This document shows, one piece after another, positions 330 through 10,844 of a stretch of 38,249 nt of DNA. The notes under the pieces are model-generated. The model was given only the letters and a program-made list of their open reading frames with translations. It did not search any database and had not been told where the DNA came from. Each line of letters starts with the position of its first letter. Within the stretch, counting starts at the first letter, position 1. Source of the DNA: a virus. Both the position numbers and the translations under genes were made by a program. The stretch lies in the IMG/VR virus record IMGVR_UViG_3300037485_001599, positions 1 through 38,249 of that record; one strand, given 5' to 3'.

Positions 330-405
330 TGTTTTTGAGTGGACAACTCTCACGGGCTCATAATTCATGAAAAGGGTTTGACGGTCAACCTTCGAAAAGG
401 GTCAG
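330..405. promoter_or_regulatory. Left prophage end with transposase-binding-type repeats
   Basis: Two direct copies of an AAAAGGG core occur here: ATGAAAAGGGTTTGA at 367-381 and TTCGAAAAGGGTCAG at 391-405. Inverted copies occur near the right end at 38012-38027 and 38046-38061. This mirrors Mu, where MuA sites ending in CGAAAA sit just inside each terminus. The exact terminal TG is unclear: candidates begin at 330, 336 or 340, but none lies about 20 nt from the first core as at the right end. The second site overlaps the stop codon of the methyltransferase gene. From 208 to 330 I see no gene other than upstream DNA of the host binding-protein gene. Confidence 0.6.
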
Positions 406-1178
406 AAGTTGCGGATAATCACCTCGTGCTGGTCCTTGGCTCGATTCTCTGGCGCGCTCGCCGCGGTCCCAGTTGAGTATTTCGTTGTGACCCGCTGAAT
501 CGTGAATTTCTTGAATAACGCTCTCACCTCCGGGACATCATTCAGGGACAGAAGGAACCGGCCTTTGATCTTGGAAAGCGTGTCCATCAGACGCGTGTAA
601 TCTTCGTGTTTGAATGGCACGGCATACCCGGCAGTTTCCCAATACGGCGGGTCCAAATAAAAGACGGTCGTCGGACGATCGTACCGCTCGATGCACCTGC
701 AGGCATCTAAGTGTTCTATGACAACCCGAGATAGCCGCCAGTGAACCTCAAGGAGTCTTTCCTCGATGTTTGACAGATTCAGGCCAGCCGGCCTGGTGGC
801 CCCTGTGCCAAACGTTCTCCCTGTCACCTTCCATCCGAAGCCGCACTTCTGAAGGTAATAATAACGAACAGCCTTCTGGATATCGGTCAGCGTTTCCGGG
901 TTCTTCATGTTCTCCAATTCGAAGATCCTGCGGGATGTTACTGCAAAGCGGAAATAACGAAGAAACTCCTCGAGGTGGTTCTGGACTACCCTCCAGAATG
1001 TAACCAACTCTCCGTCGAGATCGTTGATTACTTCCGCCTTCGATGGGTCCTTCGCAAAGAGGACCCATGATGCCCCACAGAACGCCTCACAATAACAGAG
1101 ATGATCGGGCGGGATGATCTTGCAGACTGTTTCGGCAAGGCGGCTCTTCCCGCCAAGGTAGTTCAATGGGCTTTTCAC
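402..1178 (-). CDS. D12-class N6-adenine DNA methyltransferase
   Basis: A 258-residue protein with the hallmarks of the Dam/D12 (MethyltransfD12) family. The AdoMet-binding NYLGGKSRL motif is at residues 6-14, an ExFCG-type segment (EAFCGASWVLF) follows near 31-41, IND at 51-53, and the catalytic DPPY is at 176-179. It should transfer a methyl group from AdoMet to N6 of adenine, probably protecting phage DNA from host restriction or marking it. The start is GTG at 1178 with a strong AGGAGGAGAG ribosome site 5-8 nt upstream. It is the last gene of the leftward operon, next to the left end. The preceding 147 nt fold into several hairpins that may control it. A second, unrelated-type adenine methyltransferase lies at 10365-10844. 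Confidence 0.92.
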   Translation of the reverse strand: MKSPLNYLGGKSRLAETVCKIIPPDHLCYCEAFCGASWVLFAKDPSKAEVINDLDGELVTFWRVVQNHLEEFLRYFRFAVTSRRIFELENMKNPETLTDIQKAVRYYYLQKCGFGWKVTGRTFGTGATRPAGLNLSNIEERLLEVHWRLSRVVIEHLDACRCIERYDRPTTVFYLDPPYWETAGYAVPFKHEDYTRLMDTLSKIKGRFLLSLNDVPEVRALFKKFTIQRVTTKYSTGTAASAPENRAKDQHEVIIRNF

Positions 1179-1189
1179 GGTTCTCTCCT

Positions 1190-1320
1190 CCTGCTATCGT
1201 GCATGGGTCTCTGGAGCCACGTTGGTGGACAGCCCTGGCACGGTGTTTGACGCTTCGTGGCGCCTTTCAGTCGGAGGGAGGTGAGAGTCCCTCTACTTGT
1301 TCACCAGCACTTACGCTGGA
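1190..1320 (-). ncRNA. Candidate structured leader RNA upstream of the D12 methyltransferase
   Basis: The 147-nt gap between portal and methyltransferase holds no ORF but, read on the minus strand, contains consecutive helices. CCAGC/GCTGG lies at about 1319-1304. GAGGGA/TCCCTC, with an 8-nt loop, lies at about 1294-1275. CGC/GCG lies near 1262-1251. The largest is a nested hairpin from 1241 to 1199: GTGC/GCAC, GGG/CCC, CT/AG and CCAC/GTGG with loop CAAC. The ribosome site follows within 10 nt. This fits a cis-regulatory RNA. Comparative genomics has reported a D12-methyl RNA motif upstream of this gene class, but I recall the name, not the consensus, so identity is unproven. Confidence 0.5.
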
Positions 1321-1326
1321 TCACAT

Positions 1327-2772
1327 TCATCCCGGAAGCAATTCAGTCATAAGGGTAACAATCTGGACCTCCGATAATTCCGGGAACAACGGCGATAGAC
1401 GCGTAATGGCCTCTTGTTTCGATCGGCTTGTCATTACGATCTTCGAAGCATCCGCGCGGCGACCGCATCCAAGCTGCGAACCATCCGCCAACCCTCTGCG
1501 GATTGCGGAAAAACCGACAGGACTTTGAGACGATGACCGGCGCTGGAGGGCAACCCCCAGGGAGTCTCCGATAGACGTGATTCCGTCATCAGTCAGTTCA
1601 AGGTTGGCCGCTGCCAGAGATTGAAGCAGAGCCGTGGTGTTTTTCGTGTCGTTTTGCGACTGTGAACCCCAGATCAACTTTGGAGGTTTACCAGGAAGAT
1701 TGTTAATCACGCAGAACTGAGTGATCAGTTGATGCAGCATGGTATCTGCCAAAACGGTGGCATCGAATCTCCGGATATCTTCTCGAACATCCGACTGAAG
1801 ATCGGCGGCACCACCGCCGAGGCCGCCTGGCTGAGCCTCGCTGGAAAGCGTCTGCCCGAGGATGAGCTTGGATTTCTCCCGCTGACAGATGGTCAGAAAC
1901 TTATCGTAGGCATCCCCCGAGTCTGAGGCGGACGCCTTTTGGATTTCAACAGACGTATCGCGGGAAATGACCAAGCCTCCCAGGCGAGTCGCCAGCGAAA
2001 ACGCGCTTATCAGCACATTCTGGCCTTCCTCATCGGCAAACTTGCCAACCAGGAACGGCGATCCATAACGTTCCAGGAACCGGGCCCACCACTCACGATC
2101 CATGGCCGACAGCAGCCACCAAAACAAAAGCGATCGCATTGGGCCGCCCCAATTATCAGGCGAGGAGAGCAGGTGCCCACGATGGACGATATAGCGGTTG
2201 GGATCGGGATCATGCGTGGTCGATAGAACGGCCCCGCTTTGTTGGTCCACATCAAATATCCTCATGCGACCCGTGGAGTAATCCAGCAGATGGTATGGCA
2301 CGGGCGTCAGCTTCTCAATGGCATAGCCAGAACCCGTAGGTCGGAATGTCTTTTCGATCACGCTGACTGGGTAAAGCGTCGCGTCCAGCAGGCTTGATGT
2401 GGCTGATCGCCATGTTTTGCATTCCGCGATCGCATGTTTTACCACGTCGGCCGTGACTACATCCTTCGGATCCTCCTTGTTGAACGGAAGAATTGTCAGG
2501 CTATCTCCCAGAACGGACAGTTTCCGCTTGGTCCATTCCCCCTGCAGGTGGGAGTCGGCAATGATCACATCCCGATACAGCGCGAACAGGTCGCGAGTAT
2601 ACCCTCCCTCGGCTGCCGCAATCACCGCCATAACGCGGCCAGCATCCATATTCAATGCCATCGACGGTGGTTCCTGGCGTGAGTCAACGACAGCGGCGCG
2701 CGGCTTTGTCGGGATGACTCCCGCCAACATCGTGCCTATCTTTTCTCGGATCAGTGTTTTCAGGGTCTTCAT
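1327..2772 (-). CDS. Portal protein, Mu gp29 / DUF935 family
   Basis: A 481-residue protein matching the DUF935 family to which Mu gp29 belongs. It would form the dodecameric ring through which DNA enters the head and to which terminase and tail attach. Diagnostic segments are DREWWARFLERYGSPF around residues 225-240, followed by LVGKF, and the Gly-rich GGLGGGAADLQSDVR stretch in the C-terminal half, typical of this family. Length is close to Mu gp29 (about 510). The ATG is preceded by AGGAGATGCC. It directly follows the terminase genes (8-bp gap) on the minus strand, as expected for a packaging module, though in Mu this module reads rightward and precedes gene F. Confidence 0.9.
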   Translation of the reverse strand: MKTLKTLIREKIGTMLAGVIPTKPRAAVVDSRQEPPSMALNMDAGRVMAVIAAAEGGYTRDLFALYRDVIIADSHLQGEWTKRKLSVLGDSLTILPFNKEDPKDVVTADVVKHAIAECKTWRSATSSLLDATLYPVSVIEKTFRPTGSGYAIEKLTPVPYHLLDYSTGRMRIFDVDQQSGAVLSTTHDPDPNRYIVHRGHLLSSPDNWGGPMRSLLFWWLLSAMDREWWARFLERYGSPFLVGKFADEEGQNVLISAFSLATRLGGLVISRDTSVEIQKASASDSGDAYDKFLTICQREKSKLILGQTLSSEAQPGGLGGGAADLQSDVREDIRRFDATVLADTMLHQLITQFCVINNLPGKPPKLIWGSQSQNDTKNTTALLQSLAAANLELTDDGITSIGDSLGVALQRRSSSQSPVGFSAIRRGLADGSQLGCGRRADASKIVMTSRSKQEAITRLSPLFPELSEVQIVTLMTELLPG

Positions 2773-2780
2773 GGCATCTC

Positions 2781-3494
2781 CTATGGCATTGCAAGGCTAT
2801 TCGTGCCGGCATGGTCAGCCCGATGATTGGGCCTTTTTCTATTCACATTAGACGCGCCCGCTGATTGGTATATTCCAACCTGTGTCGCGGATGCCTGTAT
2901 CGGGCCTCCCGGCGCGATTAAAGCGTGCAAGCCCAGCTTCACGGCGTCGAAACAATCCCCGTGGCGGCCATCCTCGTCGACCTCTGCCTCAAACGTGCCC
3001 CGGTCACGGACAACCGATCTGAAATCCTTCTGAACCCATGGTTCCCGCGGCAGCGCCAGGTATCCATCCTCGATCGTATTGACCAGGAGATTCCCCAGGT
3101 AGACCTTGTAAATCATTCTTTCGCCGAGATATTCCGTGGCCTCGGACGACACAATCAGGTCCACCGGGATCCGGCTGGAGAAGAAACTGCGCAGATCCAC
3201 GGCAAAGTACTTCTCTGACGTCGCATCAACGCACAGACGGCGCGCGCGCAAGCCATGCGGAATGCCGTCCAGCACGGTCGTCAGAATCGCCCTGGCAATG
3301 GCCGGGTCTTTCGCCTTCCAGGACACCAGCAGCCTGGCGTAATAGGTCATCCCAACTTCCTGAACCAGCGCCAGAACGGAGGGGTTGCTTTTCTGCTTCG
3401 TGGTTGTGCCAATATCCAGCCCCAACCCGAGCCGCGCATGATCCGGCGAGATCGCCGCCGCCCATCCTTTTGGTAGAATGTCACAGACTTTCAC
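2781..3494 (-). CDS. Terminase large subunit, C-terminal nuclease part (Mu gp28-like)
   Basis: A 237-residue protein that carries only the RNase H-like nuclease half of a large terminase. Acidic landmarks are GLDIGTT near residue 24-30, CVDAT in the middle and a terminal GRHGDCFDAVKLGL, consistent with the metal-binding acids of TerL nucleases. It would cut DNA to start and end packaging. It starts with GTG at 3494, overlapping the stop of the ATPase gene as GTGA, which suggests re-initiation by translational coupling. The two halves together have about 541-552 residues, nearly the length of single-chain Mu gp28. A sequencing or assembly frameshift is the main alternative to a natural split. 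Confidence 0.85.
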   Translation of the reverse strand: MKVCDILPKGWAAAISPDHARLGLGLDIGTTTKQKSNPSVLALVQEVGMTYYARLLVSWKAKDPAIARAILTTVLDGIPHGLRARRLCVDATSEKYFAVDLRSFFSSRIPVDLIVSSEATEYLGERMIYKVYLGNLLVNTIEDGYLALPREPWVQKDFRSVVRDRGTFEAEVDEDGRHGDCFDAVKLGLHALIAPGGPIQASATQVGIYQSAGASNVNRKRPNHRADHAGTNSLAMP

Positions 3495-4405
3495 AATTCC
3501 AGTCCTTCCGTGACATCAACGCCCACGCAAACTCCGGCTCCGAGCTCCATCGCCCTGGCGATCGCCGACGGGCTGACGGCCGCCGTCCCCCCGATCAGGA
3601 ACATCAAGGCGAAATTTCGGTCCCACGCCTGTTTATCTGCCGCCTTTTTGCGGCTTTCCTCCGGGCTTACCGGTTTTCCTGTGTCGTCGTCATACAGCGA
3701 GACTCCGGCCGCATGGCCATCCCACACGTCTACCCGATGGCAAAGCATCCCGGACGCTGCCCGGTAGAAATTCCCACGCGGATTAACCTCGAACTCGGTC
3801 CCTGCAGGCGGAATGAACTGCTCATAGGTATAGTGTTTGTCGTCTGGTGGCGGCGTTGTCGCATACCGCAAGCTGAACGCCGGGTTGCTGGACATGAATG
3901 GCGTAACCGCCTCCATCACATCCCTGGCATTTGGCCAACGCCCAACCTCGTCTCCAATGATGTGACCGGTCCAGCCGACGGCCGTGTCGGGATTGGGGGC
4001 AATCACCCGCGACCTGGAGCAAATCGTGTTCGTGTACCAGATTTTGGTCTCCAGTTTGCTGTGTTCGAACACGTCGCACACATCGTCGAACGAAAGGCCG
4101 TCAACGCTCGTCGTCAACTTCAGACCCGCCTGATCCGCCGCCGCTCGCATCATGTCGAGCAGTTTCGACCAGATCATGGCCTCCTTCAGGAGGACTTCCG
4201 TTCCCAGCACGATGGAGGCCGAGATGAACGTCACCAATACCCCGCGCTCCGCCATCATCCAGTCCAGCGCCTGGCATGCCAGCATGTGGGACTTGCCACG
4301 CTGCCTGCTCCACAGCAGGAACAGCCTGCGAATGTCCTTGCGGAAGACCTCCAACTGGTAAGGCCGCAGCTTGATGATCGGGTCTATGGTTGGTTTACGC
4401 GCCAT
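3491..4405 (-). CDS. Terminase large subunit, N-terminal ATPase part (Mu gp28-like)
   Basis: This protein has the packaging-motor ATPase domain: a Walker A variant WSRQRGKS at residues 32-39 (counting from the ATG at 4405), Walker B HIIGDE with D152/E153, and a TTPP coupling motif near 204. It ends right after the nuclease-linker sequence GVCVGVDVTEGLEL, where TerL proteins normally continue into the nuclease. I chose the ATG at 4405 because it lies 1 nt after the TAA of the upstream gene. An in-frame ATG at 4438 would add 11 unconserved residues and overlap that gene. The protein couples ATP hydrolysis to DNA translocation through the portal ring. Confidence 0.88.
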   Translation of the reverse strand: MARKPTIDPIIKLRPYQLEVFRKDIRRLFLLWSRQRGKSHMLACQALDWMMAERGVLVTFISASIVLGTEVLLKEAMIWSKLLDMMRAAADQAGLKLTTSVDGLSFDDVCDVFEHSKLETKIWYTNTICSRSRVIAPNPDTAVGWTGHIIGDEVGRWPNARDVMEAVTPFMSSNPAFSLRYATTPPPDDKHYTYEQFIPPAGTEFEVNPRGNFYRAASGMLCHRVDVWDGHAAGVSLYDDDTGKPVSPEESRKKAADKQAWDRNFALMFLIGGTAAVSPSAIARAMELGAGVCVGVDVTEGLEL

Positions 4406-4406
4406 T

Positions 4407-5012
4407 TTATTTGAACCACCCAGCGGAATGATCGACAATCACGACTGCCGGCCCTGACGACTCGGTGCGAATCAGCGACAGCATGTACCGGTATGTGTCG
4501 CTCGGGCTCCCGTATTCCAATCCACTTTCCTCTGGGATCAGACCGCTATTGATCAGCGCCCGGTTGCTGGTCTTTGAGCAGATCACTCCGTTGTTCCAGA
4601 TGTCGCCCATTTTTCTGAAGACCTTGGCGTCATACCCTTGCGCTTTCCTCCGCAATATGACCTTGTTCCAAAGCACATCAAGTGCCTGCAACGGAAGTTC
4701 GATGGACGAATATCTCTCGAACTCGGTCGCCTCCAACATGTCGCACTGAAGTTTCGCCCTCAGATACGGACTGATCCACGGATCGATCCAATGGAACACG
4801 ATCCACTCTGACCGTTCCCGTTCCAGGTCAGCCATCACCGTCGCGAGTTTGCGCTTCACCACGCGCCCGGCCTGCTTGCTGGCCTCCACAACATGCCCTG
4901 CATCGTAGAATGTCGCCTGGTGAGCGGCCGGCCCGGTCAGTGAAACCGACAAACGGTTGAACAGACTGTGCCCCCTGGTAAACAAGACATCCCCCGTGTC
5001 AGGCGTTTTCAT
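4407..5012 (-). CDS. YiiX-like permuted NlpC/P60 (papain-like) protein
   Basis: A 201-residue protein with the order of motifs seen in circularly permuted NlpC/P60 proteins such as YiiX. GDVLFTRG is at residues 7-14, His31 lies in AAHQATFYDAGHVVEAS with Glu43, and a late Cys145 lies in NGVICSKTSN. Members act as amide hydrolases on peptidoglycan peptides or lipids, so here it might assist lysis or cell-wall passage. No signal peptide is visible. It overlaps the end of the small terminase gene by 14 bp and abuts the large terminase, an unusual place for such an enzyme. The fold assignment is by motif pattern and the substrate is unknown. Confidence 0.62.
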   Translation of the reverse strand: MKTPDTGDVLFTRGHSLFNRLSVSLTGPAAHQATFYDAGHVVEASKQAGRVVKRKLATVMADLERERSEWIVFHWIDPWISPYLRAKLQCDMLEATEFERYSSIELPLQALDVLWNKVILRRKAQGYDAKVFRKMGDIWNNGVICSKTSNRALINSGLIPEESGLEYGSPSDTYRYMLSLIRTESSGPAVVIVDHSAGWFK

Positions 5013-7828: not shown

Positions 7829-8671
7829 ATGAAATTCTCCAAGATCAGTTGGACGGACCATACTCATAACCATTGGATCGGGTGCACCAAGATTCGGCCC
7901 GGCTGTGATAACTGCTACGCCTGCTCCGACTTTCAGGACCGCAAACACCTTGTCACCTGGGGCAAGGGCCAGCCCCGGAAACTCACGTCCAAGTCCAACC
8001 GGCTCCGGCCGCTGCGATGGAACGAAGAGGCCAAACGTCTGGGCATCCGCTACCGCGTGTTCTGCTCCAGTCTCTCCGACATCTTCGACCCGGAAGTCCC
8101 TGACGAATGGCGCATGGATCTGTTTGTGCTCATCCGGCGAACGCCCAATCTCGACTGGATGCTCCTCACCAAGCGCGTAGGCGGCATGCTGCACTGGTTC
8201 AACAAGTTCCCGGATCTCGACTGGCCCTGGCCTCATGTTGCCCTGGGCGCCTCCATTGAGGCCAACGCGGCAACCTATGACGGCCGCGTTCTCAATGATA
8301 TCGCCGCCGCCCGCCGCTTCGTATCGATCGAGCCGCTCATCGATCGCGTCGATTGTTCCCGGTGGATACAGGGAGTCGACGAGGTGATTGTCGGTGGCGA
8401 GACGGGGCCTAAAGCGCGCGGGCTTTCTCCTCAGTGGATCCGCGACATCCGCGATGAATGCAGGGCGCACCGTAAGACATTCGTCTTCAAAGCCTGGGGC
8501 GACTACAAACCCGGCGACATGATGCGCGATCAGTACCTCGCCGCCGGCTGGGATCCACGCGAGCGCCGCGGCGGCCGCGTCCTGGATAACACGCTATGGC
8601 TGGGCAGAGAGCGGGGAGCGCCGAGCTGGGAGTGCCGAGGGTTGAAGGGGGCAAAGCATGCCTACGCTTAA
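7829..8671 (+). CDS. DUF5131 (phage Gp37/Gp68) radical-SAM-like protein
   Basis: A 280-residue protein starting MKFSKISWTDHTHNHWIGC, the signature of the DUF5131 or Gp37/Gp68 family. Cys19, Cys26 and Cys29 form a C-x6-C-x2-C cluster motif that could bind a [4Fe-4S] centre, as in radical SAM enzymes. Later family motifs are WMLLTKR, SIEPL and VIVGGETGPKARG, then a C-terminal WGDYKPGD. Relatives occur in many phages and often sit beside three-Cys-motif partner proteins, but the reaction is unknown. The ATG has AGGAGG 6 nt upstream. The last ~20 residues are encoded by a 14-nt repeat (8614-8641), so the C-terminus looks extended through spacer DNA. It overlaps the next gene by 14 bp. Confidence 0.85.
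   Translation: MKFSKISWTDHTHNHWIGCTKIRPGCDNCYACSDFQDRKHLVTWGKGQPRKLTSKSNRLRPLRWNEEAKRLGIRYRVFCSSLSDIFDPEVPDEWRMDLFVLIRRTPNLDWMLLTKRVGGMLHWFNKFPDLDWPWPHVALGASIEANAATYDGRVLNDIAAARRFVSIEPLIDRVDCSRWIQGVDEVIVGGETGPKARGLSPQWIRDIRDECRAHRKTFVFKAWGDYKPGDMMRDQYLAAGWDPRERRGGRVLDNTLWLGRERGAPSWECRGLKGAKHAYA
8614..8641 (+). repeat. 14-nt spacer repeat (two copies)
   Basis: GGGAGCGCCGAGCT followed by GGGAGTGCCGAGGG. It is one of a set of 7- or 14-nt tandem repeats at gene junctions, and here it is translated as the C-terminus of the DUF5131 protein. The core GGAGCGCCGAGC recurs at 16773-16784. Confidence 0.7.
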
Positions 8672-10364: not shown

Positions 10365-10844
10365 ATGAACCACACCATGACGGTGATGACGCGAAGCGAG
10401 AAGATGACGTGGGCCACGCCGCAGGCGTGGTTCGACTACCTAGACCTGGAGTTCGACTTCACGCTCGACCCGTGTTGCCACCACGAAACAGCCAAGTGCG
10501 CCAAGCACTACACGCCAGCGGAAGACGGCCTCGCGCAAGCGTGGACGGATGAGCGGGTGTTTATGAACCCGCCCTATGGCCGCGAGCTTGGCGTGTGGAT
10601 GGCGAAAGCCTACCGCGAGTGCCGCGACAACGGGGCTCTGGTGGTGGCGTTCGTGCCCGCACGGGTTGACACCGAGTGGGGGCACCAGTACGCGGCGAAG
10701 GCGACCGAGGTGCGCTTCCCCAAGGGGCGGGTAAAGTTTGCCGGGGCCGACAACTCCGCTCCGTTCCCGGTGGCGGTGGTCGTGTTCAGGCCGCGAGTGA
10801 GTAGCCCCAACAAAGCATTATCTCATTCTGGGTCAAATCCATGA
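10365..10844 (+). CDS. Phage-type DNA N-6-adenine methyltransferase (Dam, PF05869-like)
   Basis: A 159-residue compact methyltransferase. The W-x-T-P opening (TWATPQAWFDYL) is at residues 15-26, FTLDPCC at 32-38, a catalytic NPPYG at 68-72, and the C-terminal part has GRVKFAGADNSAPFP. These are the marks of the phage N-6-adenine-methyltransferase (Dam) family, which typically methylates GATC-like sites. It is distinct from the larger D12 enzyme at 402-1178, so the phage encodes two adenine methyltransferases in separate operons. It overlaps the following small gene by 4 bp. Confidence 0.9.
   Translation: MNHTMTVMTRSEKMTWATPQAWFDYLDLEFDFTLDPCCHHETAKCAKHYTPAEDGLAQAWTDERVFMNPPYGRELGVWMAKAYRECRDNGALVVAFVPARVDTEWGHQYAAKATEVRFPKGRVKFAGADNSAPFPVAVVVFRPRVSSPNKALSHSGSNP

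Follow-up and report, generated by a model that had tools for sequence, protein, structure and literature searches.

A conserved structured leader RNA upstream of phage D12-class DNA-adenine methyltransferase genes, proposed as a translational switch

The modification gene mom, at the right end of phage Mu, has a GUG start codon that lies inside an inhibitory structure and is opened by the Com protein (PMC6483171). Another system that invites comparison is the D12-methyl RNA (RF02950 in Rfam 15; 64 positions, cut-off 57 bits), which a preliminary description of the present locus likened to the leader analysed here, both being structured leaders upstream of D12 methyltransferase genes. To our knowledge, the timing with which temperate phages express their own DNA methyltransferases is known in detail for Mu mom and for little else.

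The window studied in this work is a stretch of 38,249 nucleotides of viral DNA (IMG/VR record IMGVR_UViG_3300037485_001599). Transposase, MuB, Gam, an I-like protease and a Mu portal are all present, in agreement with the earlier view that the phage is Mu-like. The leader sits upstream of a D12 methyltransferase gene (PF02086), the location expected of a D12-methyl RNA.

The leader and its surroundings

On the minus strand 148 nt (1179-1326) separate the stop codon of the portal gene from the GTG of the methyltransferase gene (Table 1). This is the unused gap that had previously been counted as 147 nt; it does end at the AGGAGGA ribosome site, and it contains no minus-strand ORF, and no leader peptide among such ORFs, of at least 25 aa. 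An ORF of 9 codons which overlaps the stop codon of the portal gene (ATGAATGTG...) was considered as a leader peptide and rejected; it has no Shine-Dalgarno sequence and by eye is absent from relatives. The hairpins reported in the gap are real, namely P1, P2, P3 and the nested hairpin P4, the last of which extends one nucleotide further on each side than the 1199-1241 given originally. Because the Shine-Dalgarno sequence and the start codon belong to the functional unit, this unit (about 1176-1326) is larger than the interval 1190-1320 that had been singled out. No transcription terminator was found in the leader.

Table 1. Features of the leader and of the genes flanking it in the window
Feature	Position	Strand	Basis and remarks
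D12 class N6-adenine DNA methyltransferase gene	402-1178	-	GTG start at 1178; PF02086 E=5.7e-21, phrog_56 E=1.4e-77; regulated gene (proposed)
Structured leader RNA, whole element including Shine-Dalgarno sequence and start codon	1176-1326	-	comparison, folding
Shine-Dalgarno sequence AGGAGGA	1186-1192	-	sequence; sequestered in predicted fold
Nested hairpin P4	1198-1242	-	folding
P0 3' strand TGTCCACC	1224-1231	-	also part of P4, a competing pairing
Hairpin P3 (GGCGC/GCGTC)	1249-1264	-	covariation, folding
Anti-RBS strand TCACCTCCCTCC (P2 loop and 3' strand)	1273-1284	-	pairs with Shine-Dalgarno sequence and GUG in predicted full-length RNA
Hairpin P2 (GAGGGA/TCCCTC, loop CTCTCACC)	1274-1293	-	covariation; predicted probability 1.0 in nascent RNA
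P0 5' strand GGTGAACA	1298-1305	-	pairs with 1224-1231; family-level support
Hairpin P1 (CCAGC/GCTGG)	1304-1319	-	folding; 3' strand overlaps P0 5' strand
Mu-type portal protein gene, upstream of the leader	1327-2772	-	PF06074 E=2.5e-59; stop at 1327-1329

The folding energy of the leader is by itself mildly unusual (z -1.8 to -2.1; 5-9 of 200 shuffles were equally stable) and the case for it is therefore built on comparison. The overlap between the 3' strand of P1 and the 5' strand of P0 is present in most relatives' sequences. In the window itself P0 is a weak helix that thermodynamics disfavours, its predicted energy being about 14 kcal/mol above the ensemble, so that the three-way junction state there rests on relatives.

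Some further features of the same phage are recorded here. The large terminase is apparently split over 2781-4438 (minus strand) into two ORFs with a 4-nt overlap, 3491-4438 (minus strand) being a phrog_2 terminase and 2781-3494 (minus strand) appearing nuclease-like by eye (...GRHGDCFDAVKLGLHA...). The early region encodes another DNA methyltransferase, distinct from the first (10365-10844, plus strand; phrog_111, E=4e-51), and a DUF5131 gene (PF07505, E=7.6e-62) at 7829-8671 (plus strand) lies at the boundary of the leftward and rightward operons. At the left edge (1-230) a protein begins on the minus strand that is probably a secreted or transport protein of the host (MKWFISIALCCTTLITAAEEIFPKPDW...), which places the phage end probably between about 230 and 400.

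Two classes of related leaders

Searching with the window's methyltransferase identified homologues in viral contigs and, further, in genome records titled Kiritimatiellales, Kiritimatiellaeota, Verrucomicrobia, Lentisphaerae, Planctomycetota and Nitrospirae. About 26 distinct homologues, the window counted, carry a similar leader directly 5' of the methyltransferase gene with a varying gene upstream (group A); similar leaders with differing upstream genes were seen in Kiritimatiellota, Verrucomicrobia and Nitrospirae. In a hand alignment, in which each segment was checked against its sequence and which was guided by complementarity, pairing reaches 93-95% of cells for P2 and P3 (with 33 and 59 double-change cells, respectively) and 76% for P0 (53 double-change cells), a helix that joins the P1-P2 linker to the strand following P3; whole-strand shuffles, a type of control which in both groups does not model phylogeny, give 47-70%. 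An unguided automatic alignment showed changes on both sides in eight of the nine P0 pairs (0 of 500 shuffles) and still supported P2 as well as P0, with 0 of 500 shuffles and above the slid controls. An alignment-free comparison of P0 strands with their partners from one RNA and with permuted partners gave z of -5.5 to -6.2 for complementarity. A helix between the mid strand and GGUAGC beside the Shine-Dalgarno sequence, suggested by eye in group A, was dropped after a permutation test (z +0.5). The preliminary description had named a lack of covariation across homologues as grounds for abandoning the idea of a regulatory RNA; covariation in homologous leaders was found, and judged by these comparisons the gap encodes a genuine conserved structured RNA, with compensatory changes as are expected of a riboswitch.

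In many group A leaders the loop and 3' strand of P2 (P2') are complementary to the ribosome binding site (RBS) of their own gene, as in GCACCCCUCUC/GAGAGGGGUGC (L003), CUCACUCCC/GGGAGUGAG (L008) and CACUACUCC/GGAGUAGUG (L046). Duplexes of P2' with its own RBS have a mean energy of -15.7 kcal/mol versus -12.1 kcal/mol for permuted partners, with 0 of 20,000 permutations as good, and z is -5.7 once near-identical leaders are removed. The complementarity of P3 or of the mid strand to the RBS was not significant in the group A permutation test; the control with the 5' strand of P2 was weakly so (z -2.3 to -2.8), which counts against complete specificity. About 10 of 25 group A leaders (L005, L012, L025, L027, L045 and others) are without strong P2':RBS pairing. 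For the window, the probability of P2 is predicted to drop from 1.0 in the nascent RNA to 0.0 in the full-length RNA, where about 13 expected P2':RBS pairs cover the Shine-Dalgarno sequence and the GUG; opening of the RBS would cost 10.4 kcal/mol versus 6.4 kcal/mol with the upstream sequence shuffled. The mean accessibility of the RBS is only moderately below that of shuffles (mean z 0.92 and 0.61). Comparison and thermodynamics both indicate mutually exclusive pairings, one of them over the RBS, such as an expression platform would have and, as in the Mu com/mom system, RBS and start codon are predicted to lie within the leader structure.

A second class of leaders, more regular and of similar architecture (group B, covariance model R1), came to light through the methyltransferases of known phages. 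Across 35 diverse leaders of this group, in which P2 and P3 form a junction closed by P0, pairing holds in 84.6% of cells versus 65.6% when shuffled and less than 45% in the slid controls, and there are 200 double-change cells versus 68 in the shuffles. Alignment-free tests gave z of -7.9 for P0, -7.8 for P3' with the RBS, and -5.2 for an alternative helix in which the same mid strand pairs with a 3' strand, the three control segment pairs being not significant. Compensated anti-RBS pairs include GUGAGCC/GGCUCAC, GUAAGCC/GGCUUAU, GUGAACC/GGUUCAC, GUAAACC/GGUUUAC and UGCAAGCC/GGCUUGCA. The predicted order of folding runs from the nascent junction to the mid:3' helix and then to the sequestered RBS, and at the level of sequence the alternative pairings of group B covary as in an expression platform. 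The apex of P2 is conserved in this group (e.g., UGCGGUAACA or UGUUGGAGCA). Within it (columns 22-32 of alignment A3) the third pair tends to alternate between C-A and U-G (UGC....ACA or UGU....GCA), which are isosteric wobble pairs; this suggests a loop recognised by its shape.

R1 made no detection of the window leader at E<=10; since the model is blind to this leader, it is unproven that the two classes share an origin, and their likeness is architectural. The group A comparison points to a junction and an anti-RBS architecture like those of R1, but the anti-RBS strand is P2' in group A versus P3' in group B, and P0 is weak in the window. The corresponding group A model (R2) includes the window leader in its training set, so that the R2 score of the window is not independent; E-values of the covariance models are rough. 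With a second pattern scan, built from group A, R2 recovered already known contigs alone, and in 388 genomes of the host phylum it found one place, which was also known.

At 75 of 100 methyltransferase loci, which were chosen by gene, an R1 element lies directly 5' of the methyltransferase gene or, in com-methyltransferase operons, of com; no comparable R1 score was found elsewhere in the 100 loci. A DNA pattern scan independent of the gene returned 43 contigs, 40 with R1 and three with coincidental matches, and all 39 copies that are testable, having enough downstream sequence, precede either a methyltransferase gene (38) or com (1). Each of the ten named phages examined carries R1 (KS9, BgVeeders33, MuM16-1, KP12, VP882, TJ1, PhiKM, AM106, Mae-JY22, and Lsp-JY19), the weakest score being the 28.9 bits of Lsp-JY19; KS9, MuM16-1, and TJ1 are among the R1 training sequences. 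In TJ1 the element is 5' of com, in BgVeeders33 the gene after it is unannotated and its start resembles that of the KS9 methyltransferase, and in VP882 the gene is away from the genome end and the element still accompanies it. Of 5,426 complete E. coli genomes, 549 carry the PhiKM version, one member of the class; among the matches listed, its places fall under an annotated DNA adenine methylase. For these leaders conservation and compensatory changes are shown, as are gene specificity and covarying complementarity to the RBS, and the candidate cis-regulatory RNA of the preliminary description holds up on the grounds of covariation, a dedicated association with one gene family and covarying anti-RBS pairing.

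Individual loci provided additional observations. In L054, L135, L141, L145, L153, L169, and L252 com stands before a D12 methyltransferase gene, not before mom, and R1 stands before com; these phages apparently have layered translational control. In Acinetobacter phage AM106 (L286) a hairpin resembling a terminator, with a T run, precedes the R1 element (about 770-971), in which both strands of the anti-RBS pair have changed (CAAAAGC/GCUUUUG). Three methyltransferase genes without R1 (L177, L181, and L185) have another conserved short hairpin (AAAAAGCGCCUGGC...CCAGGCGCACAUCGCUCG) about 130 nt upstream.

No family of Rfam 15 matched the window leader when its covariance models, the check proposed at the outset, were searched. 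The idea that the leader is a member of D12-methyl has the identical class of downstream gene in its favour; RF02950 is present in Rfam 15 and gave no match in the leader even at E=10, none across the window, and in 38 related records background scores of 22 bits at most, with none above the cut-off. At the level of the model the D12-methyl identity is refuted and we give it practically no credence. The SAM and SAH families had no match in the leader, the window or the loci of groups A and B, and over these loci the remaining families produced chance matches and one tRNA. BLAST of the window leader against phages returned one chance match of 30 bases and nothing more, BLAST of an R1 leader against plasmids returned no match, and no description of this RNA was found in the open-access literature searched.

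A proposed switch and its rivals

We propose, with a probability of about 0.7, that the leader is a translational RNA switch for the methyltransferase gene which is off by default and turned on by a trans-acting factor. During transcription the 5' part would fold into P2 and P3, with P0 closing a three-way junction in relatives. Once the RBS has been transcribed, P2' (in group B a strand of P3) could exchange its hairpin for pairing with the Shine-Dalgarno sequence and GUG, the 3' strand of P0 meanwhile being drawn into the competing helix P4; with the RBS covered, translation of the methyltransferase would be blocked. A trans-acting factor holding the 5' domain would leave the RBS free and turn the gene on. 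Both the direction of switching and the existence of a factor are inferred. For the factor we favour a protein borne on the cassette, most simply the methyltransferase itself, because no other gene family lies downstream of the leader in every case, however distant the hosts; AdoMet or another ligand might play this part but is less favoured.

Close rivals of a switch held by a factor are a kinetic timer and a metabolite riboswitch. A timer without ligand, of the kind proposed for the maturation gene of MS2, would make new RNA translatable for as long as P2 and P3 hold and then sequester the RBS, yielding few methyltransferase molecules per transcript. The predicted refolding from nascent to full-length RNA, a sequestered state in the window predicted to be several kcal/mol more stable than that with P1, P2 and P3, and the fact that no regulator has been identified all agree with it; however, the energies are predictions, and in group B the conservation of the P2 apex and of the AAGGC and AG..UA positions suggests recognition by something, which leaves the timer somewhat unlikely in our estimate. 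A riboswitch responding to AdoMet, AdoHcy or another metabolite to turn the gene on would account for a junction with an expression platform of mutually exclusive, covarying helices before a gene whose product uses AdoMet. Metabolite riboswitches usually control host genes too, whereas every testable copy in the R1 scan precedes one phage gene family and R2 has its single place in the host-phylum genomes; this, and the missing match to SAM or SAH families in Rfam, makes such a riboswitch an unlikely explanation.

Readings in which the RNA does not switch, or is opened as in Mu, fare worse than the factor-held switch that we prefer. That about ten group A leaders are without strong anti-RBS pairing would suit a static structured spacer, a DNA site or a terminator, but the compensatory changes act on the RNA strand, the anti-RBS covariation comes with its negative controls, the leader has no terminator, and the element goes with its gene even away from the genome end (VP882), so we regard a static role as quite improbable. 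Activation by a zinc-ribbon Com, which would open the start site on binding the leader, has the precedent of Mu mom (PMC6483171), and some R1 leaders do precede com-methyltransferase operons (L054, L135, L141, and L252). Against it, Com (PF10122) is absent from the window and present in 1 of 36 related records, the leader sits before com itself where com exists, and Mu is without this RNA; we consider this reading very improbable.

Comparison with known systems

Taken together, the two classes occur in phages of Proteobacteria, Cyanobacteria, Nitrospirae and the Kiritimatiellota-Verrucomicrobia group. They may, and we say so tentatively and with more doubt than belief, form one new riboswitch-like superfamily for phage DNA-adenine methyltransferases that senses a common signal, either AdoMet/AdoHcy or the methyltransferase. 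If this were true, phage DNA modification would be coupled to the supply of methyl donor or to the completion of methylation. A metabolite as trigger would mean a new class of riboswitch in phages, and the methyltransferase as trigger a DNA-modifying enzyme which doubles as an RNA-binding regulator. The predicted switch is compact and testable and has no match in Rfam 15; it recurs before a single gene family in phages that differ widely, and one member is found in about 10% of complete E. coli genomes.

Autoregulatory leaders that bind a protein, such as those of ribosomal proteins, resemble this RNA in being tied to one gene or operon across a wide phylogenetic distance; no such control of a D12 methyltransferase was found in the literature searched. 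With translational riboswitches of the SAM and SAH classes it shares a conserved 5' domain followed by mutually exclusive pairing that sequesters the RBS, and it differs from them in being unmatched in Rfam, linked to phages and tied to a single gene family. The likeness to Mu com/mom lies in a modification gene at the end of a Mu-like genome, a start codon hidden in the leader and, as proposed here, opening in trans. The phage of the window, in contrast, is without Com, and its RNA is a different and larger one, with a three-way junction and competing helices; Mu does not carry this RNA, and the Mu mom leader is in our reading an analogue in logic only.
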